Assembly: GCA_903832085.1 (NCBI GenBank)
Contig: CAIKZZ010000008.1
Coordinates: forward strand, 40,258 to 104,257
DNA from: an uncultured Pseudomonadota bacterium
GTDB lineage: Bacteria; Pseudomonadota; Gammaproteobacteria; Steroidobacterales; Steroidobacteraceae
Length of the DNA stretch: 64,000 bases
Reading direction: 5' to 3'
The translations under genes were made by a program, and so were the position numbers. The notes beneath the pieces are model-generated. The model saw only the letters and a program-made list of their open reading frames with translations. It ran no database searches and was not told the origin of the DNA. This document shows positions 19,996 to 38,810 of the stretch, one piece after another. The stretch's first letter is position 1. Every line of letters starts with the position of its first letter.

Positions 19996-20474
19996 TTACA
20001 AAAACATCACTACTTGCAGCGCTGGCAGCCCTATTTTTATGGAACTCAGCATTCAGCGCAGACGGCCCGCCCATCGCGCCACTGACTAGCTTCACGCACG
20101 ACACCTTAGTGATTGACTCGCACGGCATGACTCACAGCTTTCGTGTGTACCTCGCCACCACTGAAGCTCAGCATGCGCAAGGGCTCATGTTTGTGAAAAA
20201 ACTCGACCCCGATCGCGGGATGTTGTTTATTTTTGACCAACCTCAAGTGACCGCATTCTGGATGAAGAACACCCTCATCCCACTCGATCTGCTGTTTGTC
20301 GCTCCAAACGGCCGCGTGATACGTATTGCACCGAATGCTCAGCCGCTCTCTTTGGAGTCCATCAGCTCCATGGGAACGATCTTAGGCGTCCTTGAGCTAG
20401 CCGGAGGCTCCTGCGACCGACTGCACATACAGACCGGCGATCGAGTCCTGTATCGTGCATTTCAAGCTGGCTAA
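19992..20474 (+). CDS. DUF192 family exported protein
   Basis: FRVYLATTEAQHAQGLMFVKKLDPDRGMLFIFDQPQVTAFWMKNTLIPLDLLFV. Confidence 0.92.
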   Translation: MITKTSLLAALAALFLWNSAFSADGPPIAPLTSFTHDTLVIDSHGMTHSFRVYLATTEAQHAQGLMFVKKLDPDRGMLFIFDQPQVTAFWMKNTLIPLDLLFVAPNGRVIRIAPNAQPLSLESISSMGTILGVLELAGGSCDRLHIQTGDRVLYRAFQAG

Positions 20475-20543: not shown

Positions 20544-23500
20544 TCAGAACTGCGCAGTCAGCGTCGCAAATACGTAGCGACCGAGTGCGTCATACACCTG
20601 TGGGAAGGTATTGCCGTTGCACTGCGAGCCTGGGCAATCCGAGTTACCAAAGACCGGTGGATCCTTGTCTAACAGGTTTTGGATGCCTAAGCGCAACGTC
20701 AGCTTGTCGGAGGCTTTAATAGCTGCCGTCAGATCGAGATAATCCCGAGCATCCAGCTGCGCGTCGGTATTGGAAATTGCACCGGTGGCAATCGTACCCT
20801 GCGCCGCCAAGTTGCTATTACCGCTCAACGCATCAACCTTGACCGCGTTGAAATGACGCCAGGCCAAGGACAGGTCCAAGCCCTTCCACGGTGTCTGCCA
20901 GGTTGTACGCAACGTGTGACGCCACTCAGGGTTCGGCGTGCCACAAATGTTGCCATAGTAACCAACGCAGTCATACCCTGTGGAAGAGTCTGCAGCGATC
21001 GGCGTGATCTTATAAGCCTGCATGTACGTGCCTAGCAAGGCCGTGTGAATCTTGCCATACGCCCCGAGCTGGAACGTATACGACAAATCAACATCGATAC
21101 CCTTTTCCTCCAACGTACCGACGTTGGCGAGCTTGTCGACCACGTAGCCGTTGTTGGACAACCATAACGAGCCGTTGATATCGCGATGCACGAGATCACA
21201 CAACACGCCGTTGTTGAGACACTCTTTAAGAATCGTATCAGCGCCAATACGCTGAATAACATCGTTGATCTTAATATCAAAATAATCGATCTGCGCACGG
21301 AAGTTTGGCAGCCATTGCGGCGTATAACCCACACCAAACGACGAGGTCAGCGCGGTTTCAGGCTTCAGTTGAGTGTTACCACCGATAAAGCCGTTGTACT
21401 GCACTGCCGGGTTCGCAATGATGTTGCCATACTGCGAGGCAGATACACCTGTGCGAGCGCACTGTGCCGCAGAGTAGCTTGGGCTTGGACCCGTGCAAGG
21501 ATCAGTCACGCCATCAAGACCCACTTGCTGTGCCGAATACAATTCGCCCACGTTCGGAGCGCGCACGGCGTGAGCAAAGCTCGCGCGTAAACGCACCTCA
21601 TCCACTGGCGACCACTCAAGACCAAACTTGAAGGTGTTGGTGTTAAAGCCTAACGAATAGCTGGAATAACGATAGCCAGTTTCAAAGGCGAGTGATTTTG
21701 CAAGCGACGCGTTGTCGATCAACGGCACACGTGCTTCCATGAACAACTCACGCGACGCAATTTCGCCCGACAGCGGCAGAATGGGTGTGCCACCGCAGTT
21801 GCCGCAGTCACCCGATTGGTATTCCAGATCAGGCGTGTAGGTCGATTTGACCTGACGCCACTCGGCACCAACGTTGACTCGTACACCGGACTTGGCTGTC
21901 GGCAGCTGCCAACCATACTTACCAAGGTCACCGGTGACGTTGCCACTGACAATAAACTGCTGCACTTCACCACGGATCAGCAATGGGATGCCGATGTAGT
22001 TGGTCGCCGCTGGCGTGACGCCGCCGTAATTCCAAATATTCCATGGCACGCAGGTCGGATCAGTTCCATTCTGTACGGAGCGGCACTCCGGGCCGTTAGG
22101 GCCTTGCACCACATCGAGCGCATTGTTCATACGCCGCAAGGACACGTCATTGTTGTAATTTTCAACCAGCTGCGTGTAGCCAAACTGCCCATAGGTATCA
22201 TACGACCATGTGTCGTTGATAATCCCTTTGCTGCCGATCACTAAGCGCAGCGACTGGTGTCCCAAGTCATCTTGGCGTGGGCCACCTTCCACGTTACGCC
22301 GACCGAGCAAGAACGCGACGGGCTTATTCGGATCCGCAACGCCACCGCACCACGCATCGAGCTCAGCTGCCGTAAACAAAGGGTTACCGCAAGTCGAGTT
22401 GGCGAGCCCTGCGCCGAAGAAGAACGCCGTGGGTGCAATCTGCGCGATCGAGCGATCGTTCATGTACTGCACTTCGCTGTAGACATCTGCATGCTCATTA
22501 AACTCGTAGTGCACGAAGGCACCGGCCGAGTAACGCTCATCCGGTCTCTGAAAGTAATTGAGCGGGCCGTAGTTGTAACGGTAAGAGTTATTCCAATTGG
22601 TCAGACCATTGGGTCCCACCGTCTTGCTGCCGCCGATAATTGTGCCGGTCGCAGGATCGACCGGAATAAAACGGCCAGTGGCTGCGGATGACGAACCACC
22701 GCAAGAGAACTTACCGCCCGAATCATATGACCCCGCCACGTAACCTGAATTTAAGGTACACGCGCTGTAGTCGTATGAGGCTTGCAATACGGGGGCCACT
22801 TTACGGTAGGTGGCGTACATCGTCGCATTACCCTTGCCATCACCGGAGTTAAATCCAAATAAGAACGACAGATCCTTGGTTTGGCCTGTGTTCACATTGC
22901 CAGGAGCCGTCGCAAAGTTTGCGCCCGTGTCTGAGTTGAACTGCGGCACGGCATCGCCTGCACCTTGTGGGTTGTGCTGGCTGTGGTTGTAAAAGCCGTA
23001 ATTTGTGCTGATTTTTACGCCTTCAAAATGCGTATTCAGCACAAAGTTGACAACACCCGAGACCGCGTCCGCGCCATACACCGAGGATGCGCCACCCGTT
23101 AGAAGATCAATGCGCTCAATCAACTCCGCAGGGACTTGGTTCAGATCGGATGCGCTACCACCACCCGGATCACCAGGACCTAAACGGCGTCCGTTCACCA
23201 GCACCAACGTGCGCTGTGCACCGAGTCCGCGCAGATCGACTTCTGCTGTGCCATTCGATCCGTTAGAAATGTTTGAGCCTTGTGACGCGAATACCTGGGG
23301 CAAAGAGTTGAGCAAGTCCTCAATGCGCGTCACGCCAGTTTGTTCGATATCGGCCGCACCCACCGCCACCACAGGACTGATGGAGGTCTCGTTCGGTAGC
23401 GCGAGACGCGAACCCGTGACCACGACGTCATCGAGTACGGTGTTTTGCGCGTTCGCTGGTGCGGTTTGCGCATGAGCGGCTCCGAACGACGCGAGCACGC

Positions 23501-23561
23501 TGCCAGCAAGCGCGAGGCGCACGCTCGTTGCCAGCACTTGATTGCCAATACGACTTGTCAT
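20544..23561 (-). CDS. TonB-dependent receptor 1
   Basis: Signal peptide, TonB-box/plug region VLDDVVVTGSRL, LLNSLPQVFASQG, YGADAVSGVVNFVLNT, C-terminal ...ATLTAQF. Confidence 0.95.
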   Translation of the reverse strand: MTSRIGNQVLATSVRLALAGSVLASFGAAHAQTAPANAQNTVLDDVVVTGSRLALPNETSISPVVAVGAADIEQTGVTRIEDLLNSLPQVFASQGSNISNGSNGTAEVDLRGLGAQRTLVLVNGRRLGPGDPGGGSASDLNQVPAELIERIDLLTGGASSVYGADAVSGVVNFVLNTHFEGVKISTNYGFYNHSQHNPQGAGDAVPQFNSDTGANFATAPGNVNTGQTKDLSFLFGFNSGDGKGNATMYATYRKVAPVLQASYDYSACTLNSGYVAGSYDSGGKFSCGGSSSAATGRFIPVDPATGTIIGGSKTVGPNGLTNWNNSYRYNYGPLNYFQRPDERYSAGAFVHYEFNEHADVYSEVQYMNDRSIAQIAPTAFFFGAGLANSTCGNPLFTAAELDAWCGGVADPNKPVAFLLGRRNVEGGPRQDDLGHQSLRLVIGSKGIINDTWSYDTYGQFGYTQLVENYNNDVSLRRMNNALDVVQGPNGPECRSVQNGTDPTCVPWNIWNYGGVTPAATNYIGIPLLIRGEVQQFIVSGNVTGDLGKYGWQLPTAKSGVRVNVGAEWRQVKSTYTPDLEYQSGDCGNCGGTPILPLSGEIASRELFMEARVPLIDNASLAKSLAFETGYRYSSYSLGFNTNTFKFGLEWSPVDEVRLRASFAHAVRAPNVGELYSAQQVGLDGVTDPCTGPSPSYSAAQCARTGVSASQYGNIIANPAVQYNGFIGGNTQLKPETALTSSFGVGYTPQWLPNFRAQIDYFDIKINDVIQRIGADTILKECLNNGVLCDLVHRDINGSLWLSNNGYVVDKLANVGTLEEKGIDVDLSYTFQLGAYGKIHTALLGTYMQAYKITPIAADSSTGYDCVGYYGNICGTPNPEWRHTLRTTWQTPWKGLDLSLAWRHFNAVKVDALSGNSNLAAQGTIATGAISNTDAQLDARDYLDLTAAIKASDKLTLRLGIQNLLDKDPPVFGNSDCPGSQCNGNTFPQVYDALGRYVFATLTAQF

Positions 23562-23879
23562 TGATGATCCCCTACAACCTATGGTGATGATCGGCCAAAC
23601 ACGGCACCGGCGTCATGTCATGCCGCCGGTGCACAGTGTACGCCCAACGAGTTCCCCCTCGTCTCAGAAGCATAACAAGAATATGGTATCGCCTCACCAT
23701 CCAAACGATTATGACCACCTAACCCCGATCACTAACCACCCCCCCCAGATGCCTAGGCTTAAGATCAATGAGTAGCTTTATTTAACATACTGATTTATAA
23801 GGTTTTTATATATTCCGTTTTTGCGCCATCGCTACTTAGCCTAAGTTGAGACTAGACGCGAGCATCGCAGCCTTGCACC

Positions 23880-25490
23880 ATGGTGCTCTTAAAATCGCCC
23901 AGTTCGGCCCCCATGCCCACGCCCAGCCTCCACGATTACCAGCAAGCCATCGTTGCCCATATGAACCGTCAGGACTGGGCATCCGCGGCGACCACGACCG
24001 CCAGCTGTCGGAAGGCATGGCCAGACGATCGCACGGGCTGGCTGCTAGGCAGCTTTGTGGCGCTGCTTGCGGATAAAAAAGACGCGGCTCTCGCCCTCAT
24101 GGACGAGCGACTGAGACTCGACCCCTCCGATCTACAATGCTTAATACAGCAAGCCGAGTGTTTGCTTGCGCTTGGCCGGGCGGATGAGGCACTCGCGGCC
24201 GCCGAGCGCGCGGCAGTCAGTGCGCAGGGCATTCCCGATGCGCTCGATGCGATTGCCGCATTTTTGGTGCACGCCAACGCACCGAGTCGAGCCCGCGAGT
24301 TATATGACAGCGCACTCGTGCTGACACCTAACCGCACAGATCTGCTCGGCAAACGCGCGATGGTGTCGCGTTTCTTAGGCGATTTTAAAGCCGCTGAACG
24401 CGACTATGAAGCACTACTTGCCATCGAGCCCGCCAACGCCAGTGCCCTTAAAGAACGTGCTGAGCTCACGCGCCAGTCCCTCGATCACAATACCATTCCA
24501 GCAATGGAGCGCTCCCTAGCAAGCTCGGTACCTGACTCCAAAGATGCCGCTACCCTGCACTTTGCGCTCGCAAAATCCTTTGAAGACACCGGCAACTACA
24601 CCAGTAGTTGGGACCATTTAGGTCGCGGCAACGCAATCGAACGAGCCCTTATTCAGTATGACGTTCGTACCGACTGCGACCTTATGCAACAACTCACAGC
24701 AACGTTCCCAGCGTCGCAAAAAAAACCACTACTGTCCGCAAACACAGGACCCATCTTCATCGTCGGTCTGCCGCGCAGTGGTACCACGCTGGTCGAGCGC
24801 ATCCTTGGCAGTCACTCACGCATTTATCCAGCGGGTGAACTGCCTGCGTTGTCCGAAGCGCTCACGGCTGCGATGGTCAAAACCTCAGGCCTTGAACGCT
24901 TTACACGGGAGCAGTACATCAGCGCGCTGCGTGTGCTCCCCCCGGAACTGATCCGCGACGAATACTTAAGTCGGGCGCAGGCGCGTCGCGGTGAAAAAGA
25001 TTTTTTTACAGACAAACAGCCCACAAACTTTTTTTACTGCCCAGTAATCGCGCAGGCATTTCCAGACGCTCGCATCATCCATCTGACTCGCCATCCACTG
25101 GCTACCTGCTATGCGATCTATAAGACGCGCTTCCAGGGCACCTATCCTTTTGCCTACGATTTACGCGAACTGGGCGACTTTTATATCGGTTACACCAAAT
25201 TGATGGCGCACTGGCATGCCGTTTTGCCTCATCGCATACACGATCTTTCCTATGAGAGGCTGGTCACCCACCCAGAAGAGACAATCCGAGCGCTCTTCGA
25301 ATATGTGGGGTTAAACCTAGAGGACGCATGTCTTAACTTTCATGCAAACCCCACAGCCACCACGACTGCCAGCGCGGTTCAAGTTCGTCAGCCGCTATAC
25401 GACTCGTCCGTTCATCAGTGGCAGAATTACGCGTCTGAATTGGCTGACCTCCGACGACAGCTCGAGCTTGCCGGCATTAAGATCCAATAG
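23880..25490 (+). CDS. TPR-repeat sulfotransferase 1
   Basis: N-terminal TPRs; PAPS 5'-phosphosulfate loop FIVGLPRSGTTLVERIL; 3'-phosphate motif LTRHPLATCYAIYK. Confidence 0.9.
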   Translation: MVLLKSPSSAPMPTPSLHDYQQAIVAHMNRQDWASAATTTASCRKAWPDDRTGWLLGSFVALLADKKDAALALMDERLRLDPSDLQCLIQQAECLLALGRADEALAAAERAAVSAQGIPDALDAIAAFLVHANAPSRARELYDSALVLTPNRTDLLGKRAMVSRFLGDFKAAERDYEALLAIEPANASALKERAELTRQSLDHNTIPAMERSLASSVPDSKDAATLHFALAKSFEDTGNYTSSWDHLGRGNAIERALIQYDVRTDCDLMQQLTATFPASQKKPLLSANTGPIFIVGLPRSGTTLVERILGSHSRIYPAGELPALSEALTAAMVKTSGLERFTREQYISALRVLPPELIRDEYLSRAQARRGEKDFFTDKQPTNFFYCPVIAQAFPDARIIHLTRHPLATCYAIYKTRFQGTYPFAYDLRELGDFYIGYTKLMAHWHAVLPHRIHDLSYERLVTHPEETIRALFEYVGLNLEDACLNFHANPTATTTASAVQVRQPLYDSSVHQWQNYASELADLRRQLELAGIKIQ

Positions 25491-25511
25491 GCGTTCGCGC
25501 ACGCATACTGA

Positions 25512-26087
25512 CTAATGTACGCGAGTCACCTTGCAGTCACGCCCAGTTGCCGTCTTAATCCGAAATGACCCGAATGCGCCGCGCACCAGACGCACCGTAT
25601 CACCAAGTTTTAATAGCAAATCACCAGCCGGGGTCAGTTCACGCCATGCCTGGCCATTATCGAGGTTAAACACGACTCGCCCATCGTCTTGCAACGCAAG
25701 TCCCATCACGCGCGCCCTCAATTCTGGAATTTCAGTCGGCTGGCCTGGCTGAACATCGCGCGCCACAATAGTCGCGGGTGGTAGCCCAAATTTTTCAGTG
25801 GGCGTCAGTCGAGCTACTGGCGTGACGGGCGAGGCCGTGCCCTTTGCGGCAGACTCGGTTGGTGAGGTAGCGCTTGCTATATCAACAACGCGGCTAGTAA
25901 CACTCGTCTCGTCGTCGAGCACCGCGCTTTCTCGATCAAAGCAAGCAAGCCTCTCATTGGTATCGCGAATAGCCCGACACTGCAATAAAGCATGCACTCC
26001 AGTGTCGGCAAAAGCCGAACTCATTATCAGAGTCGCAACCATGCTTACAGCCGGCAGTGCCCCTTTCAAACCCCACTCGCTACGCAT
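25512..26087 (-). CDS. Exported hypothetical protein with C-x2-I-x-D-x3-RLxC(F/Y)D motif (paralog A)
   Basis: Signal peptide; LQCRAIRDTNERLACFD and LDNGQAWREL...LGDTVRLVRGAFGSFRI, shared with 30964-31473. Confidence 0.8.
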   Translation of the reverse strand: MRSEWGLKGALPAVSMVATLIMSSAFADTGVHALLQCRAIRDTNERLACFDRESAVLDDETSVTSRVVDIASATSPTESAAKGTASPVTPVARLTPTEKFGLPPATIVARDVQPGQPTEIPELRARVMGLALQDDGRVVFNLDNGQAWRELTPAGDLLLKLGDTVRLVRGAFGSFRIKTATGRDCKVTRVH

Positions 26088-26108
26088 GACTCAATCCCCC
26101 GCTATTTC

Positions 26109-27431
26109 TTACAGTCCCATCGGCGGTAACCCTTCGCCTTCATAAAAATCAGCAATCGCGATCATCGCTTCTCGCACTAAATCACGCTCCATCAGCGTGA
26201 GTGCTGGATGCCATATATCAAAAATCAGTATGGCGCGAGGGATATCAGAATCATTCCATGCCTCATGCTCAATGGTGTCGTCAAAGGCCCACGCACGGCC
26301 CACTTGCCACTCGCGCGTTTCGCCACCGACTCGGAACCCGCATCCCGGCGGCACGATCAATGGCAAATGGACTGTCAAGCGCGTGTTGGTAACACCTGTA
26401 TGCGCCGGAATATGTGTCTTTGCATCGAGAATAGAAAAAAATGCCGTTGGCCCGCGACCAGGAATATCGACTTGGGGCGTTTTACTCAGCGCCACCATCG
26501 TCTGAGGGCAGCGCACGATACGCTCTTCCTGTCGCGCACCTTCGTTACTCAGAAAGTAGGCGCCCCAGCGCCTCGAGTGATTGAGTTCGCGCCACTGATT
26601 CAAGGGCACACCATCCGGATAGGCGATATACGGCTGCATACCACCCACGTCCTCGCGCAATAGCTGCGTCAATTCTTCGCGGATCGCCCCGGTTGCATAC
26701 TCTAATTCTTCCATCCATGGAAAATCGCGCCGCGGGTAGTACTCATGATTTGTCAGAAACGGAAAATGCATGAATGTTGGCTGCGGTGCGTAAATTTTCG
26801 TGCGCCCCAAAATCTGCGCAATTGAGCGCTCAAAACGCTGACGCCCATCGCGCGGATCACTGCGCCGTATAGGCCCAACGCGCGCCTCAATAGAACTCGC
26901 CAAACTCGATGCCGCCTCTGCCACGCGCGAACGCGCATGCTTGACGTGCGCCTCCAATGCCGGCGGTAGTCTTAGTTCAGGCGACAACGTATCCAACGCA
27001 TTTTTATACACCTGCGCTGCAGCACGTGACCTGCCCATCAGATCAAGCACGGCGCCTTTTTGCAGCAGCACGACTAAGTGCGCAGGATCAAGCGCCAAAG
27101 CGCGCTCTAAGGTGACCAGTTCCGCATCGCGACGACCCAGCGCACGCTCAGCTGCAGCCACACTCAGCCAAAACTGCACATAATTCGGCGCGCTCTCGGC
27201 GGCTGCCTGAAACAATGCGAGCGCTGACTCTGCATCTCCAGCGCTCAGCATACGTCGCGCACTTTCATGCAATACGAGCGGGTGATTCGGCAGCAACCTC
27301 TGCGCCTCATTAAAACATTGCTGCGCCTGTTCACTTTGCCCTTGCGCGAGCAGCTGATCTACCTGCGTCATCAAATTGACAACTGTGGTTTCTAAAGTCG
27401 CGCGTGTCGCATCAGCCAAAGTCTTACTCAT
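26109..27431 (-). CDS. TPR plus aspartyl/asparaginyl beta-hydroxylase-like protein 1
   Basis: IPAHTGVTNTRLTVHLPLIVPPGCGFRVGGETREWQVGRAWAFDDTIEHEAWN matches the AspH catalytic-domain pattern; N-terminal TPRs. Confidence 0.9.
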   Translation of the reverse strand: MSKTLADATRATLETTVVNLMTQVDQLLAQGQSEQAQQCFNEAQRLLPNHPLVLHESARRMLSAGDAESALALFQAAAESAPNYVQFWLSVAAAERALGRRDAELVTLERALALDPAHLVVLLQKGAVLDLMGRSRAAAQVYKNALDTLSPELRLPPALEAHVKHARSRVAEAASSLASSIEARVGPIRRSDPRDGRQRFERSIAQILGRTKIYAPQPTFMHFPFLTNHEYYPRRDFPWMEELEYATGAIREELTQLLREDVGGMQPYIAYPDGVPLNQWRELNHSRRWGAYFLSNEGARQEERIVRCPQTMVALSKTPQVDIPGRGPTAFFSILDAKTHIPAHTGVTNTRLTVHLPLIVPPGCGFRVGGETREWQVGRAWAFDDTIEHEAWNDSDIPRAILIFDIWHPALTLMERDLVREAMIAIADFYEGEGLPPMGL

Positions 27432-27446
27432 GGTGTCAGTATATCC

Positions 27447-29432
27447 TCAAGATCCATGCGGATAGCGCTCAACTAAGGGGCCGAGTGCGCGCCTTAGTGG
27501 CTCGAGCCAAGCCTCATACTCACGCCAGCGATCCACAGACTCTGAATAAATCGGCTGCCTCACCTGCTCTGAACTAATCGTGGTGACGACTCGGCGTGTG
27601 TTGTAGAACTGTAGGCATCCAGCTTCAAAGGGAAGCTGGCAATACGCAAGCAAGCGGCGCACTTCGCTCTCAGGATCAGCCACTAAGTGCTCGTAGTGGA
27701 CTCGATGAATACGGCCTGGCAAAACCTGATCATAGTGATCCATTAACGCCACATAATCGGCGTAAAAGCGCCCCATATCGGCTTGGTCGTAGCTAAAGCC
27801 CATGCCTTTTGCAAAAAGCTGCTTGTAACACGAAAACCCCCCACCCAATGGGTGGCGTCGAGCATCAATAATGGCCGCGTTAGGAAACATCAGGTGGATA
27901 ATCCCGACATGCCCAAAATTGAATAAGTTCTTATCCACAAAACGCGGCTTGCCTAAAGGCCGATGAATACTTGTGCGCTCAAGATACCGCGCGGCGCACG
28001 CCGCAAACACCGACGAATCAAGTGCGCTGAGCGACTCAGGGTATGCGCCTGTCGTTGGACTCACAATGATCTCGTAGCCAGCAGCGGCTAAATCCGGCAG
28101 CTCACGTGTCCCTTCAATTTGCGAATGGCTGCTTAGGATTTGTTCAAGTAAGGTGGATCCAGAGCGTGGCAAGCCCACAATAAAAATCGGATCAGCGCGA
28201 TCAATGCCCCAACCTTGGCGCTGATCGAAAAAATCTTGCGTAAAGAACTCTCTGTCGCGTGCGACATCGCTGCTCATGACATCCGGATCGTAGACAAGCG
28301 TTGAGCGCTGAGTACGATTGCCACGCTCATAATGGCTAAAGGACGTTGCATACTTGCCTTGGTCCTCAAATGCCTTGCCGAGCGCGAATTCAATATGAAC
28401 CGTATCGGCCTGACGCAACTGCGCGCTTGCCAATAGGTCGCCCATTTGCTTGATTTCAGCCTCGCCAAACCGAAACATTTTTAAGTTCGCAAGACTCCAA
28501 TACGCAGCGCCAGACTCGGGTCGCAACGTCAGCACTTTTCGATAGGCATCAATGGCCGCCTGCTGATCGCCTTGTGCACGCAGCGTATGCCCCATGAGTA
28601 GCCAGAGCATTTCACTCGTCGGATGATCGATAAGCGCACAACGTGTGACCTCAATCGCCGCTTCATTGGAACCGAAGACCCGTAACGTTTGGGCTTTCAG
28701 ATGGATGTAAGTGGTATTCGTTGGATCTGCTGCGAGCAAGCGCTCGAGCTCTACTAACGCCGCCTCATGCTGGTGAATGGTGTGCAGCAATTGAGCCAGC
28801 TCAAACCGCGCACGCGCGTCTCCAGGCGCTTCCTTGAGGCACTCGCGCAGTTGCCGTTCGGCTGCTGGATAATTGCCCTGCCGCGACGAGATATCGGCCA
28901 GATACCGCAGCGCGACCGTGTCTGTAGGCACCAACTTTAAGCGCGCCTCAAATAGCGCCTGTGCCGTCGCGAGCCGATTCTCGGCAAGGGCTACACTCGC
29001 ATCCCCGAGTTCCACGGGGTCTGCAATCAACGCCATATAACTCGCGTAGGCGCGATCGCCCATCACTGTCTGGCCATCCGCAAAGTAAAGCGCCGCGAGT
29101 GCACGCCACGCATCGGCAAGACCCGCATCTAATTGCACTGCCTGCACCAGAGCCGCACGGGCCTCAGCAACGTGCCCCACTGCCAGTAATGCACGACCCA
29201 TCTCCAGCGCCAAAAACGCGGATGCGGGCAGCATCGGCGATAAAGCCTTGAGTATTCCTAGGGCTTTACCAGGGTCATTGAGCTTCGTGCAGGCCGTCGC
29301 CAAGAGCAACTGGGCCTCGGTGTGTCCCGGATGCTCTGCAAGCACCAGACCAGCCAGCTCGGCCGCGCGCGCAGGATCCGTCTCCAGCGCCACGATGGCA
29401 CGCATCATCTGTATATCCGCCGAGGGACTCAT
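27447..29432 (-). CDS. TPR-repeat sulfotransferase 2
   Basis: FIVGLPRSGSTLLEQIL, DARRHPLGGGFSCYK; multiple TPRs; start ATG 29432 or GTG 29438 uncertain. Confidence 0.9.
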   Translation of the reverse strand: MSPSADIQMMRAIVALETDPARAAELAGLVLAEHPGHTEAQLLLATACTKLNDPGKALGILKALSPMLPASAFLALEMGRALLAVGHVAEARAALVQAVQLDAGLADAWRALAALYFADGQTVMGDRAYASYMALIADPVELGDASVALAENRLATAQALFEARLKLVPTDTVALRYLADISSRQGNYPAAERQLRECLKEAPGDARARFELAQLLHTIHQHEAALVELERLLAADPTNTTYIHLKAQTLRVFGSNEAAIEVTRCALIDHPTSEMLWLLMGHTLRAQGDQQAAIDAYRKVLTLRPESGAAYWSLANLKMFRFGEAEIKQMGDLLASAQLRQADTVHIEFALGKAFEDQGKYATSFSHYERGNRTQRSTLVYDPDVMSSDVARDREFFTQDFFDQRQGWGIDRADPIFIVGLPRSGSTLLEQILSSHSQIEGTRELPDLAAAGYEIIVSPTTGAYPESLSALDSSVFAACAARYLERTSIHRPLGKPRFVDKNLFNFGHVGIIHLMFPNAAIIDARRHPLGGGFSCYKQLFAKGMGFSYDQADMGRFYADYVALMDHYDQVLPGRIHRVHYEHLVADPESEVRRLLAYCQLPFEAGCLQFYNTRRVVTTISSEQVRQPIYSESVDRWREYEAWLEPLRRALGPLVERYPHGS

Positions 29433-29656
29433 GGGCACGGTACGGATCTCCTCGACCAAGGTAGCAAGCCATTAAAGACTGTCTGCCAGCGGCACGCAAA
29501 CGCCACAGCTTACCCCCCCCCACGGAGCGCCGATGCCCGCAAAAGCTATGTAGCCGAACGCGACCACCTGAGTCAACGGCCTAAGCGCTGCGCCGCGGTG
29601 CAGCGGCGCGCACGAACAGCTACAATCGACTGCAGTTCTCCTGCGAGGTCACTCAT

Positions 29657-30964
29657 TTGAGCAGCACAGCCCCTGGGGTATTGGACGAGGCGGGGATCCT
29701 GCGCGCCTTGCAGATATCAAAAGCGGACGCAGCCGCTGGCCGCGTCACTGAGTCTGATCAGCTGCTAGCACGTATTGCTGAAGCCGCCCCCCATCACCCC
29801 GCGGTGCTCAACGAGCTTGGCGTGCGCATGCTGGCTCGCGGCTCAGCAGAACAAGCGCAGGCACTGTTTACACGCGCCACCAGCGCGGATCCGCGCCATC
29901 CCGCCCTCTGGGCCAATCTCGCGAGTAGCCTCAAAGCACTCGGCCGGCGCGACGAGGAGCGCGATGCCATTGACAAGGCGCTCGAACTCGAACCGCGCCA
30001 CCTGTCCGCTCTTTTGCAAAAAGGGGCTTACCTGGAAGAGACGGGCGATGTGCGCAGCGCGGCCCGCACCTACCAAAACGCCTTGGAATGCATTGCACCC
30101 AATGCACCCGTACCCGCTGCGATTGCAGATACCCTACAACATGCCAAGCAAGTGGTGGAATCTGATTACAACGATTTGACCCGAGCGCTGGAAGAGCCTT
30201 TGGTTGCGATCCGCGCAGCGCACGGACAACGTCGCGAGCCCCGCGTCGATCAGTGCTTGGACATTCTGATGGGCCGTCGCAAGATCTATCACTCGAATCC
30301 CACGTGGATGTACTTCCCTGGATTACCAGCGATCGAGTTTTTTGAGCGAGCAGACTTTCCGTGGCTGGACGCCTTTGAAGCGGCCACCGACGACATCCGC
30401 AGTGAGTTAATGCGGATCCTCGTGGCCGATCGAGAGGGCCTACAGCCCTATGTCGACTATCCCGTCACGATGCCGCTAGACCAGTGGCGCGAGCTCAATC
30501 GTTCACGACGTTGGAGCGCCTACTTTCTATGGAACCAAAGTCGACCGGAAGCCGCTCACATCGCGCGCTGCCCAATCACGGCCCGTATTCTCGAGACCGC
30601 TCCGCGCTGCCGAGTCGAGTCCCGCGCGCCGACTGCTTTCTTCTCCATATTGGACACCAATACCCGCATACCGGCCCATGTCGGCATCACCAACACACGC
30701 GCAACAGTCCACGTACCGCTCATTATTCCGCCCGATTGCGGCTTTCGTGTTGGCAACACGACCCGCGAATGGGTACCAGGGCAGGCTTGGGTGTTTGATG
30801 ACACCATCGAGCACGAAGCATGGAATTTATCGGATACACCGCGCGCCATTCTGATCTTTGATATCTGGAACCCGCTGCTAACTGCCGTCGAGCGCAGCAT
30901 GATTCAGACCGCCACAGAAGTTTACGTCGAGCACTACGCACTACCTCCAGACCAGATCCGGTGA
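29657..30964 (+). CDS. TPR plus aspartyl/asparaginyl beta-hydroxylase-like protein 2
   Basis: IPAHVGITNTRATVHVPLIIPPDCGFRVGNTTREWVPGQAWVFDDTIEHEAWN; TTG start with TACAAT -10-like upstream. Confidence 0.9.
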   Translation: MSSTAPGVLDEAGILRALQISKADAAAGRVTESDQLLARIAEAAPHHPAVLNELGVRMLARGSAEQAQALFTRATSADPRHPALWANLASSLKALGRRDEERDAIDKALELEPRHLSALLQKGAYLEETGDVRSAARTYQNALECIAPNAPVPAAIADTLQHAKQVVESDYNDLTRALEEPLVAIRAAHGQRREPRVDQCLDILMGRRKIYHSNPTWMYFPGLPAIEFFERADFPWLDAFEAATDDIRSELMRILVADREGLQPYVDYPVTMPLDQWRELNRSRRWSAYFLWNQSRPEAAHIARCPITARILETAPRCRVESRAPTAFFSILDTNTRIPAHVGITNTRATVHVPLIIPPDCGFRVGNTTREWVPGQAWVFDDTIEHEAWNLSDTPRAILIFDIWNPLLTAVERSMIQTATEVYVEHYALPPDQIR

Positions 30965-31473
30965 TGCCCATGCAGCTACCTAAGATGCTTCTCATCAGCC
31001 TGCTGTGCAGCGCAGCGTGCTTGGCTGCCGACATAGACCCCAGTGCGTTGCAGCGCTGTGCAGCCATTGCCAGTGATGCCACGCGACTGCAGTGTTACGA
31101 CACCTTGGCCGGCCGACCGATGACAGCACCTCAGGATCTTGCGTCTACCAATCACACCCTGCCCACTGGCACAGCAGCATCGACGACGGCGCCAGCCGCC
31201 ACAGAGCCTGCGAGCAGCTTTGGGCTCAGCGCAACGCAGCTCAATGTCGCCAAGCCAACGACTGATGCGGTACAAGGGCGAGTCGTTAACTTAGCAGAGA
31301 GTGCAACCCAGCAACTTATGGTCACATTAGATAATGGACAAGTGTGGCAACTTACCGGCGAAGATGCGCATGTGAATGTCGGCGAGCAGGTCACGATACG
31401 ACGCGCCGCGCTGGGCTCATTTTTGCTCATCACCAAACTTAAATTTGTGTACCGCGCGCACCGTATCAAGTGA
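30964..31473 (+). CDS. Exported hypothetical protein (paralog B)
   Basis: LQRCAAIASDATRLQCYD and LDNGQVWQL...VGEQVTIRRAALGSFLL; start overlaps the upstream stop codon. Confidence 0.8.
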   Translation: MPMQLPKMLLISLLCSAACLAADIDPSALQRCAAIASDATRLQCYDTLAGRPMTAPQDLASTNHTLPTGTAASTTAPAATEPASSFGLSATQLNVAKPTTDAVQGRVVNLAESATQQLMVTLDNGQVWQLTGEDAHVNVGEQVTIRRAALGSFLLITKLKFVYRAHRIK

Positions 31474-31546
31474 TTATCTTGGTGGCGGAACATCGCGGCC
31501 ACATCATTAGCATGACTCGCCTTAATGCGCGCATACAGGCCTGACA

Positions 31547-33178
31547 ATGACCAGAAACACGGACGCAGATACCGCAACGTTGCGCGCGGTCCTTGAGGCC
31601 GCTCAAGCGCGAGATTTTACGCGTGCAGGCATGCTTGCCAATCAAGCACTCGCCACGGGTCTTGAGCATCCACTATTACTGAACGTCGCAGCCACTGTAC
31701 TCGAACATGCTGGCAAATTTAACGACGCAATCGTACTGCTAGAGCGCGCCGTTGCCATCGCCCCCGCTGATATCGGTGCCCGCAACGCCCTCGCCTTGGT
31801 TTTGCAACGGGTAGACAGGCCCGCAGATGCGCTGATCCATCTCGATGAAATCTTAAAGCTCGACCCAAACCTTAGTTTTGTCCACGTCAGCAAGGGCAAC
31901 GCGCTCATGAGTTTGGGCTCACTCGGCCGCGCCAAACTATGCCACATGCATGCACTGACGCTAGAGCCAGAAAATGTGATTGCTCAGGCAGCATTGGCCT
32001 CCATTGCGAGTCACTTCGGTTTACACGAGGAGGCAGCAGACTGGGCGCACCGCGCACTCGCCAAAGTACCGAATCTGCCGGATGCGACCATTGTGCTTGC
32101 TACTGCGGAACTGGCCGCCGGTCGCGCCACGAATGCAGAGAAACTTGCACGGCGCCTACAACTAGATCCGCGCTTAAGCACTGCCGATCAAGCGCGCGCT
32201 TTTGGCATCATTGCCGATGCCTGCGACGCCAGCGGCCGTTACACAGACGCCTTTAACGCCTACACCTTATGTAACGCCGCACTGCAGGCGGTGCATCGCA
32301 CGCTCGCCAGTGGGACGAGCGTACTCGACTATGCGCGTGGCATTAACGTCGCCTTGCGCCATGCTAACCCACGCTGCTGGCAGCCACAGAGTCAGCACGT
32401 ATCACCCAGCGCTGACGAGCCCACCGACCATGTCTTTTTACTGGGCTTCCCTCGTTCAGGGACCACACTGCTAGAAGTGGTACTCGATGGCCACCAGGAT
32501 GTTGTCAGCCTTGAAGAGCATGAACTTCTCATCGACTCGGTCGTCCATTTTTTTAATGAGCCGCTGCGGTTTCAGGATCTAGAGCAAGCAGATGAAGCCA
32601 CACTGGCTCCACTACGAACGGCGTATTGGGACCATGTCAAAGCTGCTGACGTGCGGTTTGCAGGCAAGGTCTTTATCGATAAACATCCGTTAAATACTTT
32701 AAAACTGCCACTCATCGCCCGCCTATTCCCGCGCGCCAAGATTTTGTTTGCGTATCGTGATCCGCGCGATGTGGTACTCAGCTGCTACCGACGACGGTTT
32801 AAGATGAACAAAGCGATGTACGAACTGCTCACCTTGCCCGGGGCTGCGGCTTTGTATGACACGGTAATGGAATGCGCTGAGCGTATGCGACCACTCGGTG
32901 GCCTGGCATGGCACGATGTGCGTTATGAGGATCTGCTGCTGGATCTACCCGGCGCAACACAAGCGATCTGTGGGTTTTTGAACCTACAATGGCAGCCACA
33001 GATGGTGGACTTCGGCCTGCGCGCGACGGCGCGGGAGCATGCAACCCCAAGCACCGCGCAGTTGAGTGGTGGTCTAAAGCACAGCAGCCAAGGGCACTGG
33101 CGACACTATGCGTCTGCACTGCAGCCCATAGAACGCACACTCGCGCATTGGGTGCAGCGGCTCGGCTACCCACCTTAG
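31547..33178 (+). CDS. TPR-repeat sulfotransferase 3
   Basis: FLLGFPRSGTTLLEVVL, FAYRDPRDVVLSCYRRRF; N-terminal TPRs. Confidence 0.9.
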   Translation: MTRNTDADTATLRAVLEAAQARDFTRAGMLANQALATGLEHPLLLNVAATVLEHAGKFNDAIVLLERAVAIAPADIGARNALALVLQRVDRPADALIHLDEILKLDPNLSFVHVSKGNALMSLGSLGRAKLCHMHALTLEPENVIAQAALASIASHFGLHEEAADWAHRALAKVPNLPDATIVLATAELAAGRATNAEKLARRLQLDPRLSTADQARAFGIIADACDASGRYTDAFNAYTLCNAALQAVHRTLASGTSVLDYARGINVALRHANPRCWQPQSQHVSPSADEPTDHVFLLGFPRSGTTLLEVVLDGHQDVVSLEEHELLIDSVVHFFNEPLRFQDLEQADEATLAPLRTAYWDHVKAADVRFAGKVFIDKHPLNTLKLPLIARLFPRAKILFAYRDPRDVVLSCYRRRFKMNKAMYELLTLPGAAALYDTVMECAERMRPLGGLAWHDVRYEDLLLDLPGATQAICGFLNLQWQPQMVDFGLRATAREHATPSTAQLSGGLKHSSQGHWRHYASALQPIERTLAHWVQRLGYPP

Positions 33179-33220
33179 GCTGCGGGCGACACGGCACCAA
33201 GCAACAAACTTGTGTGGCCA

Positions 33221-33249
33221 AAAAAAACGGCGGGCATTGAGCCCGCCGT
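33221..33249 (-). terminator. Terminator of TonB receptor 2
   Basis: ACGGCGGGC-attga-GCCCGCCGT with A-tract on + (T-tract for minus-strand transcript). Confidence 0.8.
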
Positions 33250-33282
33250 CATTCTGCCTAAGCGAAAGTGTGACTTCCGAAC

Positions 33283-36200
33283 TTAGAACTGTGCCGAGAT
33301 GTGCGCGTACATGTAACGACCCATTGTGTCGTACGTGCCCACCCAGGTGTTGTCATTACACGTCAAGTTTGGGCAGTTCGAATAGTTGCCGTTGTATGCC
33401 AACGGTGGCAACCGATCCGAAATGTTGTTCACACCCAAACGCAACGTCACGCCCGTGGCCACTGGCATCGATGCTGACAGATCGATGTAGTTCCACGCCT
33501 GATAATGAGCGCCCGGTGGGAAGTAGGGCTTCGCGAGCGCTGGGTTGCCGTCCGTCGAGTCCTGATCCACCGAACCGATATAACGCCACCGTGCGGTCAC
33601 ATCCAAGCCCTTCCATGGCGTCGCCCACGTGCTGGTAAACACATGACGCCACTTAGGCGTTGGCGAACCGCAGGTACTGCCGTAGAGGCCCGCGCAATCA
33701 AACGAACCACCGGTCGGCAAAGGCTGGGTGGTCAATGCCTGCACGTGGGTGCCGTTCAATGACAGACCCAACTTACCCATCGATCCCAACGACAGTGTGT
33801 AGTGCGAGGCCAGGTCGATACCCTTGGTCTGTACCGTACCAATGTTCTGCTCAGTAGCGGCAACATAGTCGTTGTTGTTGAACCAGAGCGAGCCGGTTTG
33901 TGGATCGCGATGGATCAAACTGCAAAGATCTTGTTGACCTGTGTTTGCGCAGTTGGCGATGATGGTATCTGACGACAGCGACGCGATCGTGTTCTTGATC
34001 TTGATGTCGTAGTAGTCGATCGTCACCACAAGCCCTGGAAGCGCTTTAGGCTGCATCACAACACCGAAGCTGAAGGTGTCAGCCACTTCAGGCGTCAGGT
34101 TCGGGTTACCACCAGACGATGTATTAATCTGCGCTGCGGTGTTCGGCAAAATCTTGCCATACTGACCCGCCGTGACGCCCGTGTTCAAACACTGCTGCAA
34201 AGTGTACTGCGGGGTTGAGCCCCAGCATGGATCAGCCACACCGCCTGAACCCACCACGGATGGGCTGTACAGGTCACCGATGCTGGGTGCGCGCACGGCG
34301 CGGTTGTAGCTACCGCGGAAGCGCACGTCCGAAATCGGCGCGTACTCAACTCCGAACTTATAAGTATTCGTGCTAAACCCTGAGGTGTAGGTCGAATAGC
34401 GATAGCCGCCATCGGCCGACAACACGTAGATGCCAGGCTTGTCATCAACCAAGGGGAGACGGAACTCACCAAATACTTCCGCGACATGGAAGCCACCGTG
34501 GATCGCACTGAAGGCGCCGTTGCCGCCCGATGCAAAGCCGTTCGCAAAGATGTAGTCCGGATCAAAATCGAAGTGTTCCTGACGGTACTCAGCACCCACG
34601 TTAACAATCACGCCGCTCGCAGCCGTCGGTACTTTCCAGCCGTACTTACCTAAGTCACCCGTGGCAGACGCCGACGCGATGTACTCAAGCGACTTGGTCG
34701 AGTAGGTCGACTGCACAGTCAGATACTTCAGCTGATCAGGGGTCACGCCGCCTGGGTTCCAAATATTCCATGGCACGCACGCGGTGTCTGAACCGTTGAG
34801 CGCTGAATTACACACTGGCGCACCTGCAGCGACGCCCGCGACACCACCGGTTGCTGGGTTCGGCACCACATCAAGCGCACGCAACACCTGCTGCGCCCCG
34901 AGAAAGCCGCCCTCCACGTCCTGGAAGGTCGTAATGCCGACCTGACCATGGATGTCGTAGGACCACGCATCGTTCAGTTTACCCTTCGCGCCCAAGACTT
35001 CACGGAACGAGTTTGAATAGTAATTATCCAAACGTGGACCGCTTTCCACACTGCGACGTGCGGCGAGCAGCGTGATGTCACCATTCGTACCGCCCCACTG
35101 AGCCTCGTTCGCTGCAATCGCACTTGGGCTGCAAATGGTCGAGGCAAAATCAGCCGGGATGAGTGGGTTTAAGTTCGAGCAATGCAAGTTCAGCTGACCG
35201 AACGCAAACAAGCCGCTGGGGCCGTACTGTGCGGTCGAGCTATTCCGCGCATACATGAACTCTGAGTACACGTTGGTGTGCTCGTTCACGTCATAATTGA
35301 AGAAGGCGCCGGCAGTGTAACGCTCAGAGGCGCGCTGCAGATAGCTGATGCCTCCGTAGTTATAGGAATCGCGCGAACCGTTGTAACCGCGGATGCCGCC
35401 CGCTGGATTGACCGTGGCGTCTGCAATGGCGGTGGAGGTGTGTCCGGCTGGGGTTAAGCCTAAGTCCAAGAAGCGTCCCGTGGCGCTGGAGCTTGAACCA
35501 CCGCAAGCCACTTGTTTGCCCGCTTTGATGGCGGTGATGCTGCCCGGCGTATTGAGCGTGCAACCGGCGTAATCGTATTGGTTGCCAACCGCAGGCTCGC
35601 TGTTCAAGTACCCAAAATACACCGTCGCGTTGCCTTTGCCGTCAGCAAAGTTCGATCCTGCAACGATGGAAACGTTCTTGTTCGCACCCGCGCGCACCGT
35701 GCCCTCTGGCGCTGGATTGTTACGCTGAGCCAACAAGTCCAACAAGAATTCGTTGTTGTTCTTGTGCTGATTGATGCCGTAATCGACGTCAACCTTAACG
35801 CCTTCAAAGTGGGTGTTCAGCACAAAGTTCACGACGCCCGCGACCGCGTCTGCGCCGTACACGGAGGAGGCACCACCGGTGAGTACGTCGACGCGCTCGA
35901 CCAGACCCGCAGGCAGCTGGTTGATATCAGCAACCGACGATGTGCCCAAGCCCGCGCCCGGGCTCATACGGAAGCCATCCACCAGCACCAAGGTGCGAGC
36001 GGAACCCAAACCACGCAAGCTCACCGTCGCGGTGCCGTTTGAGCTGATCGACTGCCCCGAGCTATTTTCCGCAACCACCTGCGGCAAGCTATTCAACAAA
36101 TCTTCGGCGCGCACAAGGCCCGTCTTTTGGATATCGATTGCCGTGAGGCTGGTCACGGGACTAATCGACACGTCATTCGGGGACTGCTGAATGCGCGATC

Positions 36201-36339
36201 CGGTCACAACCACGTCTTGCAACACAGGATCCGCTGGAGCGGTCTGCGCAAAGGCCGCATGGCTGCTAAGGGTTGTTGCCGTTGCAGCGAGGGCGAATCG
36301 AATTGCACGGCGGACCATTAGACTTGTTGAATTTTGCAT
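33283..36339 (-). CDS. TonB-dependent receptor 2 (paralog of receptor 1)
   Basis: Signal peptide MQNSTSLMVRRAIRFALAATATTLSSHAAFAQ; VLQDVVVTGSRI; CVPWNIWNPGGVTP; C-terminal AHISAQF. Confidence 0.95.
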   Translation of the reverse strand: MQNSTSLMVRRAIRFALAATATTLSSHAAFAQTAPADPVLQDVVVTGSRIQQSPNDVSISPVTSLTAIDIQKTGLVRAEDLLNSLPQVVAENSSGQSISSNGTATVSLRGLGSARTLVLVDGFRMSPGAGLGTSSVADINQLPAGLVERVDVLTGGASSVYGADAVAGVVNFVLNTHFEGVKVDVDYGINQHKNNNEFLLDLLAQRNNPAPEGTVRAGANKNVSIVAGSNFADGKGNATVYFGYLNSEPAVGNQYDYAGCTLNTPGSITAIKAGKQVACGGSSSSATGRFLDLGLTPAGHTSTAIADATVNPAGGIRGYNGSRDSYNYGGISYLQRASERYTAGAFFNYDVNEHTNVYSEFMYARNSSTAQYGPSGLFAFGQLNLHCSNLNPLIPADFASTICSPSAIAANEAQWGGTNGDITLLAARRSVESGPRLDNYYSNSFREVLGAKGKLNDAWSYDIHGQVGITTFQDVEGGFLGAQQVLRALDVVPNPATGGVAGVAAGAPVCNSALNGSDTACVPWNIWNPGGVTPDQLKYLTVQSTYSTKSLEYIASASATGDLGKYGWKVPTAASGVIVNVGAEYRQEHFDFDPDYIFANGFASGGNGAFSAIHGGFHVAEVFGEFRLPLVDDKPGIYVLSADGGYRYSTYTSGFSTNTYKFGVEYAPISDVRFRGSYNRAVRAPSIGDLYSPSVVGSGGVADPCWGSTPQYTLQQCLNTGVTAGQYGKILPNTAAQINTSSGGNPNLTPEVADTFSFGVVMQPKALPGLVVTIDYYDIKIKNTIASLSSDTIIANCANTGQQDLCSLIHRDPQTGSLWFNNNDYVAATEQNIGTVQTKGIDLASHYTLSLGSMGKLGLSLNGTHVQALTTQPLPTGGSFDCAGLYGSTCGSPTPKWRHVFTSTWATPWKGLDVTARWRYIGSVDQDSTDGNPALAKPYFPPGAHYQAWNYIDLSASMPVATGVTLRLGVNNISDRLPPLAYNGNYSNCPNLTCNDNTWVGTYDTMGRYMYAHISAQF

Positions 36340-36597
36340 AATTCCCTCAGAAAAAATCCATTCGGACTCTAAATTGCTCATCGTCAACCAGGTGCTGGCA
36401 GACCAAATATGGACGATCCAAACGCACATTCGCACGGTTGGACCCCATTAATGACAAGGACGTTACAGCAGGTCGTATCAATAAACAACTGTTTTAGGTC
36501 AGTTCCATCTAGGGATTTATGCCGCGAGAGACATTATTGTTGTTTTTATGCGACATTTAGCGTACGTAAAATGGCCGGCCTGCGTGGCCGTGCACTT

Positions 36598-37260
36598 TTA
36601 TGGTGCCGCCTCGGTAAACCAACAATTGGTAGCGACCGTGATCCGTGTATCCGCACCATAAAAAGGTGTGACCTCGTGGAAAAGATACGAGGGAAATACC
36701 ACCAACTGCCCAGCACGGAGGCGCATTTCCAGTGGCGCACAGGCATAGGTCCGCTCGAAGCCACGATTGGCCGGATCCACGTAGGCGCCGACCCCCTGCC
36801 GAGGATCAAACAGCCGCAATAGGCCGCTGTCAGGATGCTCCGGCACGACCGCGCCGGGCCGCACGCAATACACGGCAGACCATGACGCCAGCGGATGGTT
36901 GTGATTCACAAAACCACCAGCGTACCGCGACACGTGAAACCACGTGTGATTTTGCAGCGTCAGCCGCGCGAGATCCGCCAAGGTCTGTTGGGTGGTCTGA
37001 CACACGACCTGACCGATGGTATCTAGCATAAAGCGCCGCAGTTCCTGCACACAGGACTCTGGCCAACGAAACAAGTTAAACCGGCTTTCGAAAGTTTCAG
37101 CTTGCTGCGTATGACTCGGAGTGGGATTCCGAAACTCATCGTTTTCGCGCGCTAAAAAAAGCGCCTCTAAATCACGGTTCAGCGCCTCACATGACGCCAA
37201 GTGCGCCTCCCCAAACGGCACGGCGAACAACGAATTGATTTTGAGCCCTGCACCTACCAT
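36598..37260 (-). CDS. Putative 2OG-Fe(II) oxygenase A
   Basis: GGFVNHNHPLASWSAVYCV...DSGLLRLFDPR...VVFPSYLFHEVTPFYGADTRITVATNCW; internal start MVGAGLKINSLFAVPFG. Confidence 0.85.
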   Translation of the reverse strand: MVGAGLKINSLFAVPFGEAHLASCEALNRDLEALFLARENDEFRNPTPSHTQQAETFESRFNLFRWPESCVQELRRFMLDTIGQVVCQTTQQTLADLARLTLQNHTWFHVSRYAGGFVNHNHPLASWSAVYCVRPGAVVPEHPDSGLLRLFDPRQGVGAYVDPANRGFERTYACAPLEMRLRAGQLVVFPSYLFHEVTPFYGADTRITVATNCWFTEAAP

Positions 37261-37907
37261 TGCGTCATCCCCGTCTGTCCGGGCGCCCTGTAGCGCACCC
37301 GCAAGGTCACCAATATCAAGTCCCCTGCTGCCCGGATCAAACCCACCTCGTGGGTCAAGCTCGCAGGAAATACCGCCATTTGGCCAGGCACTGGCTGCCA
37401 CGACGAATGTCCAGATGCATATTGAGGAACGAGCAGGCTATTGCTTGCGTCCTGAAACATGGTCGTGGGTCGCGGCTCAAACAAGCGCAGTGCCCCGCTA
37501 TCATGCCGCTCAGTCGAGGGTTCAGGGGCCGCAACACAGTAAACTGCACACCACGATGTCAGCGGGTAACTCGTCGCCGGCACACGCCCGTTGGGTCGCA
37601 CGATCGTGAACCAACCCAAGCCCTCAACCGACATAGAGTTCCAGCGCTCTTCAGAAAACTGATTCACGGATGACACAACCGAGTGCACCCCACGAAACAT
37701 CTGGGTCGCCAAACTGCGAACTTTGGGATCCGGCCACAACAAAAGATCCACCGCGCTTTGATAACGCAGCGGGTTTTGCCGCGCAGCATCAGCCGCGGCA
37801 TGCGCGTTAAAAAAACTGGCTAGCTCGCTATTTAAAGCCGCGGCCTCACCTAAACCCACCACGCCAAACGGCATGGCGAACAATGGCTGTACGAAATTAG
37901 TATCCAT
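37254..37907 (-). CDS. Putative 2OG-Fe(II) oxygenase-like protein B, His-x-His motif absent
   Basis: Paralog of A and C (SWCAVYCV, HDSGALRLFEPR, VFPASLTHEV) but ATSYP replaces NHNHP/AHSHP; overlaps start of A by 7 bp. Confidence 0.82.
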   Translation of the reverse strand: MDTNFVQPLFAMPFGVVGLGEAAALNSELASFFNAHAAADAARQNPLRYQSAVDLLLWPDPKVRSLATQMFRGVHSVVSSVNQFSEERWNSMSVEGLGWFTIVRPNGRVPATSYPLTSWCAVYCVAAPEPSTERHDSGALRLFEPRPTTMFQDASNSLLVPQYASGHSSWQPVPGQMAVFPASLTHEVGLIRAAGDLILVTLRVRYRAPGQTGMTQW

Positions 37908-38156
37908 ATTTCAGGCTACCGGCTCCTCGTGTCTCACGGGTTCGGGCGCTACACCCCGTCAACTTGGCTTCGAGTATAACGAACTCAAGCTCAACTGCCC
38001 GTTTCCCTCGGCGTACGAATCGGTCTTGATCCCTATTCCGTACGGCACCACGGCGTTCGTGGGCCCTACAGCCACTTAACTAAACAGGCTATACCACCTA
38101 TTCTAGAGACATAGCGCGCTCACCAATCACTCTACCGCAGAACGGGAACTCATCAG

Positions 38157-38810
38157 ATGAAGGCTCCGGAAATTCGTATTGAAACACTGTTTGCCACACC
38201 TCTTGCGCTCATCGAGCATCCGTACTGTGAAGCGCTCAACAGTTCGCTCGAAGAATTGTTCTTGTCACGTGAGACGTCGGCCTACCAAAATCCCCGGCCA
38301 TCGCACCTACCGCAACCCGAGACCTTTGAGAGCCGCTTCGATCTATTTCACTGGCCGGAGCCGGCGGTCCGTCAGCTACGCGAGTTCATGTTAGGATCAG
38401 TGCTCGACGTTGTGCGCGAGCTCAACCACTACACCCCTGAGGAAGTCGCAGCCCTCACCCTCAAGAATGACACTTGGTTTCATGTGATGAGGCGCAATGG
38501 CTCCTTCGTCGCTCACAGCCATCCCATGGCCTCCTGGTCTGCGGTGTATTGCGTACGTGGCGGTGAGGAGGTCCCTCAGCGTAAGGACAGTGGACTACTG
38601 CGCTTTTTAGATACTCGCGGCACCACCAATTTTTTGGATGCGGGCAATGCGCGACTCGAACCTCCCTATAGTGCTGGACACTTTTCGGTACGCTTAAAAC
38701 CCGGGCAGCTCGTCATTTTTCCAGCACACCTCGTCCATGAAGTAGCGCCGTTTTTTGGATCAGACACCCGCATTACGGTTGCTAGTAACTGCTGGTTTGA
38801 TCGCCGCTAA
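38157..38810 (+). CDS. Putative 2OG-Fe(II) oxygenase C
   Basis: GSFVAHSHPMASWSAVYCV...DSGLLRFLDTR...VIFPAHLVHEVAPFFGSDTRITVASNCWF. Confidence 0.87.
   Translation: MKAPEIRIETLFATPLALIEHPYCEALNSSLEELFLSRETSAYQNPRPSHLPQPETFESRFDLFHWPEPAVRQLREFMLGSVLDVVRELNHYTPEEVAALTLKNDTWFHVMRRNGSFVAHSHPMASWSAVYCVRGGEEVPQRKDSGLLRFLDTRGTTNFLDAGNARLEPPYSAGHFSVRLKPGQLVIFPAHLVHEVAPFFGSDTRITVASNCWFDRR

Follow-up and report, generated by a model that had tools for sequence, protein, structure and literature searches.

What do relatives of human protein-modifying enzymes act on when they are encoded, gene after gene, beside bacterial TonB receptors (TBDRs)? The question is raised by a 64,000-nucleotide stretch of DNA, here called the window (contig CAIKZZ010000008.1, positions 40,258 to 104,257), from an uncultured bacterium with a 2.65 Mb genome; the relatives of this bacterium are listed under Gammaproteobacteria, in several cases as Steroidobacteraceae. 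Window positions 20544–38810 hold twelve genes: two TBDRs, three sulfotransferases (STs) fused to tetratricopeptide repeats (TPR-STs), two TPR proteins resembling human AspH (TPR-AspHs), two small exported proteins (sm) and three PF13759 oxygenases (OGs). All twelve lie where an earlier note on this DNA had placed them, with Pfam assignments that agree with the families it named; as it also held, neither transposase nor non-ribosomal peptide synthetase (NRPS) or polyketide synthase (PKS) genes interrupt the locus. Our answer, put forward tentatively, is that these genes belong to a receptor-linked module that would modify a polypeptide, most likely a TBDR, before its export.

The earlier note had treated the paralogue sets as one system. 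We rejected that arrangement in favour of two side-by-side modules, each with a receptor, a hydroxylase, a sulfotransferase and a small protein. Every window gene was compared with the loci of relatives and its best match taken, and the paralogues assigned consistently to one of two locus types. TBDR1, ST1, sm1 and AspH1 (module I, 20544–27431) matched type I loci best, in which the gene order is OG-AspH-sm-ST-TBDR. The best matches of ST2, AspH2, sm2, ST3, TBDR2, OG1 and OG2 were type II loci, ordered ST-AspH-sm-ST-TBDR-OG-OG-ST; with OG3, which leans to the same side, these genes make up module II (27447–38810). The TBDR tree agreed with this assignment, TBDR1 and TBDR2 falling in separate groups. 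Many related loci hold a single module type, and a genome of the same genus (L015) has both adjacent, as in the window. Dozens of genomes repeat the module order and content, an arrangement far beyond chance. This recurrence and the consistent assignment of paralogues indicate joint inheritance of receptor and enzymes.

Shared ancestry of the locus, beside DUF192 and PadR genes, could in principle hold together genes that do not act together. The DUF192 gene, usually single-copy, does mark the same neighbourhood in many genomes (26 of 52 full-strength copies among the matches listed lie ≤10 kb from AspH, sm or PF13759 genes), and the genomes are related, so that counts are not independent. We nevertheless consider neutral co-location very improbable: the modules duplicate, invert and relocate with their content kept, paralogues assign consistently to modules, and the families remain associated in Sphingomonadales, Caulobacterales and Nevskiales.

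Co-occurrence of the families across genomes, which the earlier note had proposed as a check and as its own test of refutation, was borne out. A scan of species genomes gave at least 576 TPR-AspH relatives, the best 80 of which include Steroidobacteraceae, Nevskia, Sphingomonas, Sphingobium, Phenylobacterium, Caulobacter, Nitrospirillum and Duganella. Among 87 non-redundant AspH loci, picked by AspH similarity, related to one another and in some cases on short contigs, a TBDR was present in 61 and all five families in 27. The TPR-AspH query was matched in 54 of 60 related genomes, with many matches being TPR-only; keeping strong matches alone left 45 genes in 32 of these genomes. PF13759 genes were found ≤10 kb from 28 of the 45, against 0.8 expected. 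In Polymorphobacter, TBDR, sm and TPR-AspH stand side by side. The repeated pairing of receptors with such enzymes is seen in bacteria of soil and water. Other taxa encode TPR–PF13759 fusions, and TPRs are hence joined to all three catalytic types in a TBDR setting, which favours the shared TPR docking partner suggested previously. Viral copies of TPR-AspH were sought and none found. Orphan TPR-AspH genes with no TBDR, ST, sm or OG nearby were seen at L085, L092, L093, L097, L098 and L112; some orphans adjoin a PriA-like helicase or a histidine kinase gene.

Linkage to receptors extends to TPR-STs outside AspH clusters. The window genome encodes eight TPR-STs. Across three genomes, 13 of 15 TPR-STs outside AspH clusters have a TBDR ≤5 kb away, in every case with both genes on the same strand, where 12–15% of each genome is that close to a TBDR (binomial tail ~2e-9; two of the three genomes belong to one genus, and the TPR-ST/TBDR events are not fully independent). 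Nearby metabolic genes vary (amidohydrolase, mandelate racemase-like, glutamine synthetase-like). Since the linkage persists while these settings differ, the TBDR is what these loci have in common. Most of the ST-linked receptors fall in another TBDR subfamily than the AspH-linked receptors. A tryptophan halogenase, considered as an additional TBDR-linked enzyme, was rejected, being missing from the window genome.

The window STs align to human TPST2 (PDB 3ap1) and resemble it in the motif PRSGTT, which binds 3′-phosphoadenosine 5′-phosphosulfate (PAPS), and in a Glu at the position of the catalytic base; the 5′-phosphosulfate-binding pattern PRSG[TS]T and this Glu are present in all three. 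The equivalent of TPST2 Glu99, which we take to be its catalytic base, is Glu in 56 of 57 pattern-matched sequences and Asp in one; 22 further open reading frames (ORFs) did not match the simple ST pattern. Sulfotransferases need a Glu or His base (PMC6637879). PAPS-forming genes (CysD-like, CysN/C and a CysQ-like phosphatase) are present in the genome. The window STs differ from TPST2, and in general outline from Xanthomonas RaxST, in having an N-terminal TPR array and TBDR linkage instead of a RaxX-like peptide gene. A ~370-aa family without a Pfam match recurs beside modules (e.g. L074:7749-8867, L100:8860-9957 and L079:5693-6772), and profile comparison (85% probability) suggests that it is a divergent sulfotransferase.

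Both window AspHs carry a TPR domain followed by a PF05118 oxygenase, as does human AspH (PDB 5jqy, 5apa), the best PDB match by sequence and fold. AspH1 matched human AspH across TPR and oxygenase (E = 5e-30), and the ten best fold matches of its model (pLDDT 94) were all human AspH, with template modelling scores of 0.42 for the whole chain and 0.81 for the oxygenase domain alone. The proteins are alike in the order of TPR and double-stranded beta-helix domains, the HTG site, and the 2-oxoglutarate (2OG) and backbone-binding residues. They differ in that the window proteins have no endoplasmic reticulum or membrane anchor, a different TPR-oxygenase arrangement and replaced side-chain residues. 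With residue roles taken from human AspH (PMC6817910; human numbering), the Fe ligands H679 and H725, the 2OG residues S668, H690 and R735, and the backbone-binding Arg686-Asp721 pair were invariant in 46 of 46 TPR-AspH homologues, and Gly681 was retained in 45. The two-His HxG site was present in 97 of 98 AspH matches. Three residues that touch the substrate Asp carboxylate in human AspH were replaced in the 46 homologues: Arg688 by T/I/V/L, Lys666 by F/M/V (few Y/I/L) and Gln627 by A/V (few T/S). As the replacements are mostly apolar, Asp/Asn hydroxylation is not supported. The resemblance to protein-modifying enzymes drawn by the earlier note thus stands, for human AspH including its TPRs and for TPST2 including the base Glu; the Asp/Asn target is disfavoured, the side-chain-binding residues having been replaced. 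From these residues we infer that TPR-AspH is a polypeptide hydroxylase acting on a non-acidic side chain. In human AspH, substrate hydroxylation requires the TPR domain (PMC6817910).

The HxH...H...R motif is intact in OG1 and OG3, which share the PF13759 domain and motifs of TIGR02466/PF13759 oxygenases. In OG2 and its 12 orthologues (13/13) the metal-binding HxH is incomplete and the final Arg missing, and OG2 is thus predicted to be a conserved pseudo-oxygenase coupled to an active OG1. This pairing sets the cluster members apart from TIGR02466/PF13759 oxygenases, as do TIGR02466 scores below the 62.5-bit curated cut-off (48.9, 27.2 and 47.6 for OG1, OG2 and OG3). A true TIGR02466/PF13759 oxygenase is encoded on another contig of the same genome (L118:9364-13684), beside CysQ-like, CysN/C and CysD-like sulfate-activation genes.

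The small proteins sm1 and sm2 match no family above cut-off and show weak N-terminal similarity to VasI. A 37-member alignment and an AlphaFold model (pLDDT 81) indicated four parts: a signal peptide, a segment C-x(8-13)-R[LM]xC[YF] predicted to be helical, a linker that varies, and a domain of six strands that carries the conserved pattern LDNGQxW...GSF; comparison of the model with the PDB gave no confident match. sm genes lie ≤3 kb from 24 of the 45 strong TPR-AspH genes, often tens of bases away, and also adjoin PF13759 genes where AspH is missing. Such proximity would be expected if sm, and not the receptor, were the hydroxylase substrate. We judge this very improbable. sm1 contains no Tyr and cannot be the Tyr substrate of the STs; the small exported proteins, offered earlier as candidate substrates, are thus a poor fit for Tyr sulfation. 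Furthermore, sm occurs next to TBDRs where neither AspH nor OG is detected nearby. At AspH-less loci it is often beside TBDRs (e.g. L200, L205–L208) or STs (L209, L213, L215, L218).

The mechanism we propose treats the region as two adjacent copies of a putative receptor-tailoring module. Signal peptides are found in the TBDRs and small proteins and none is recognisable in the enzymes (simple hydropathy and sequence); the enzymes are therefore probably cytoplasmic, and apart from OG2 their catalytic sites look unimpaired. In the cytoplasm, two TPR-docked enzymes, a two-His 2OG hydroxylase and a PAPS sulfotransferase, would act on one polypeptide together with a PF13759 oxygenase. The TPR domains would dock this polypeptide, and its hydroxylation, predicted on a non-acidic side chain and not on Asp, and its O-sulfation would precede Sec export. 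The substrate would most likely be the cognate TBDR precursor; TBDR1 and TBDR2 have the signal peptide, plug and beta-barrel domains of such receptors. In the periplasm, sm may work as a receptor-specific partner. HMW1C- and TibC-type enzymes glycosylate exported outer-membrane adhesins in the cytoplasm, a precedent for pre-export modification of an outer-membrane protein by an enzyme encoded alongside; the chemistry and target class differ, and the likeness drawn is one of general description.

Several observations weigh against this proposal. AspH is alone, with all partners missing, in 18 of the 87 AspH loci. Human AspH hydroxylates EGF-like domains that carry disulfides (PMC6817910), the pairing expected of an AspH substrate being Cys3-4; a precursor still in the cytoplasm would not be of this kind. 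Residues marking the cluster TBDRs were sought, and the conserved ones were also present in the unclustered L171, leaving none distinctive; nor did any Tyr column distinguish ST-linked TBDRs from unlinked TBDRs of equal similarity. The substrate claim is weakened by this want of a receptor residue specific to clustered or ST-linked TBDRs. Some close TBDR relatives have no adjacent ST. There are unlinked receptors just as close as the linked ones, so that the enzymes may work in trans or may have a substrate other than the receptor. All functional evidence consists of linkage and homology.

Other points on this side would suit enzymes that make or modify a small molecule, a lipid or a glycan (for example a siderophore-like ligand, an ornithine lipid or part of a lipopolysaccharide) which the TBDR imports or which is located near it, an alternative that is unlikely but carries real weight. 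Lipids are the substrates of some related PF05118 proteins, and among NCBIfam models the AspH domain comes nearest to two lipid hydroxylases, OlsC (2e-28) and LpxO, with scores far under their cut-offs. A TPR-less HTG AspH-like oxygenase is encoded in an NRPS cluster on a Streptomyces cellulosae plasmid (L222:8974-9711), with a tryptophan 7-halogenase nearby; as this homologue shares the oxygenase fold, the fold alone is no proof of a protein substrate. Sulfotransferases also commonly act on surface glycans. However, the Streptomyces homologue is without the backbone-binding Arg found in all 46 TPR-AspHs, and the near-universal HxG two-His site speaks against a small-molecule substrate. No ligase, NRPS/PKS or conserved exporter was found in the modules. 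TPRs fused to three catalytic types beside TBDRs, and TPR-STs next to a wide range of TBDRs whose metabolic settings are unrelated, likewise argue against such a substrate.

A polypeptide substrate could also be a peptide encoded elsewhere, or a very short one, RiPP-like (ribosomally synthesized and post-translationally modified) or RaxX-like, that is exported and then re-imported or sensed via the TBDR. RaxX/RaxST is a known bacterial case in which an exported peptide is sulfated on tyrosine (PMC6637879), and TPR and 2OG enzymes suit peptide substrates. We regard the idea as improbable. The module spacers hold no conserved ORF of 18–99 aa, no RiPP-type precursor gene is among the recurring neighbours, and the modules include neither a conserved peptide exporter nor a leader peptidase. 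A MATE transporter and an M3 peptidase are encoded downstream in the window and are not among the recurring neighbours.

Scarce nutrients, and many phages and antibiotics, enter mainly through TonB receptors, which to our knowledge are treated as unmodified proteins. If a TBDR precursor is indeed the substrate, conserved, multi-copy, receptor-linked enzymes would bring a further level of chemistry to these receptors and supply a bacterial counterpart to two enzymes of the animal secretory pathway. Proteobacteria might then hydroxylate and tyrosine-sulfate specific TBDRs in the cytoplasm before export, through TPR-docked enzymes homologous to AspH and TPST, with the marks setting ligand range or recognition by phages or other organisms; this fuller version we consider doubtful. 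A search of the open-access literature, with subscription papers outside its scope, found no published description of this gene combination.

Table 1. Features of the two modules and one adjoining gene (window positions)
Feature	Position	Strand	Evidence
TBDR1 (module I), signal peptide	20544..23561	-	PF07715 6e-22, PF00593 5e-31; nearest type I loci
TPR-ST1 (module I), TPR + PAPS sulfotransferase	23880..25490	+	PF13469 3e-45; TPST2 match 8e-8; Glu at TPST2 Glu99 position
sm1 (module I), exported	25512..26087	-	two-Cys helical segment + small beta domain; 37-member alignment; model pLDDT 81
TPR-AspH1 (module I), two-His (HTG) metal site	26109..27431	-	PF05118 4e-44; human AspH 5e-30; model pLDDT 94
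TPR-ST2 (module II)	27447..29459	-	PF13469 3e-45; type II loci
TPR-AspH2 (module II)	29657..30964	+	PF05118 8e-41; type II loci
sm2 (module II), overlapping AspH2 stop codon	30961..31473	+	same 37-member alignment; type II loci
TPR-ST3 (module II)	31547..33178	+	PF13469 2e-32; type II loci
TBDR2 (module II)	33283..36435	-	PF07715 4e-20, PF00593 4e-33; type II loci
OG1 (module II), intact HxH...H...R	36598..37260	-	PF13759 5e-15; motif in translation + orthologues
OG2 (module II), predicted pseudo-oxygenase overlapping OG1 start	37254..37907	-	PF13759 1.5e-5; motif defects
OG3 (leans to module II), motifs intact	38157..38810	+	PF13759 1e-15
DUF192 protein, possible extra component or positional neighbour	19992..20474	+	PF02643 1.5e-30

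Two start codons were reassigned. The true start of TBDR2 is likely near 36339, at an ATG ahead of the signal peptide, and the OG1 ORF (36598-37401) most likely starts at 37260, giving a 7-base overlap with OG2. Adjoining module I, window positions 19055-20474 encode a PadR regulator, a 187-aa protein without family assignment and the DUF192 protein, which may be a module component or a mere positional marker. A retropepsin-like aspartic protease (PF13650) was present beside modules in seven loci (e.g. L052:8866-9966, L099, L035 and L062).

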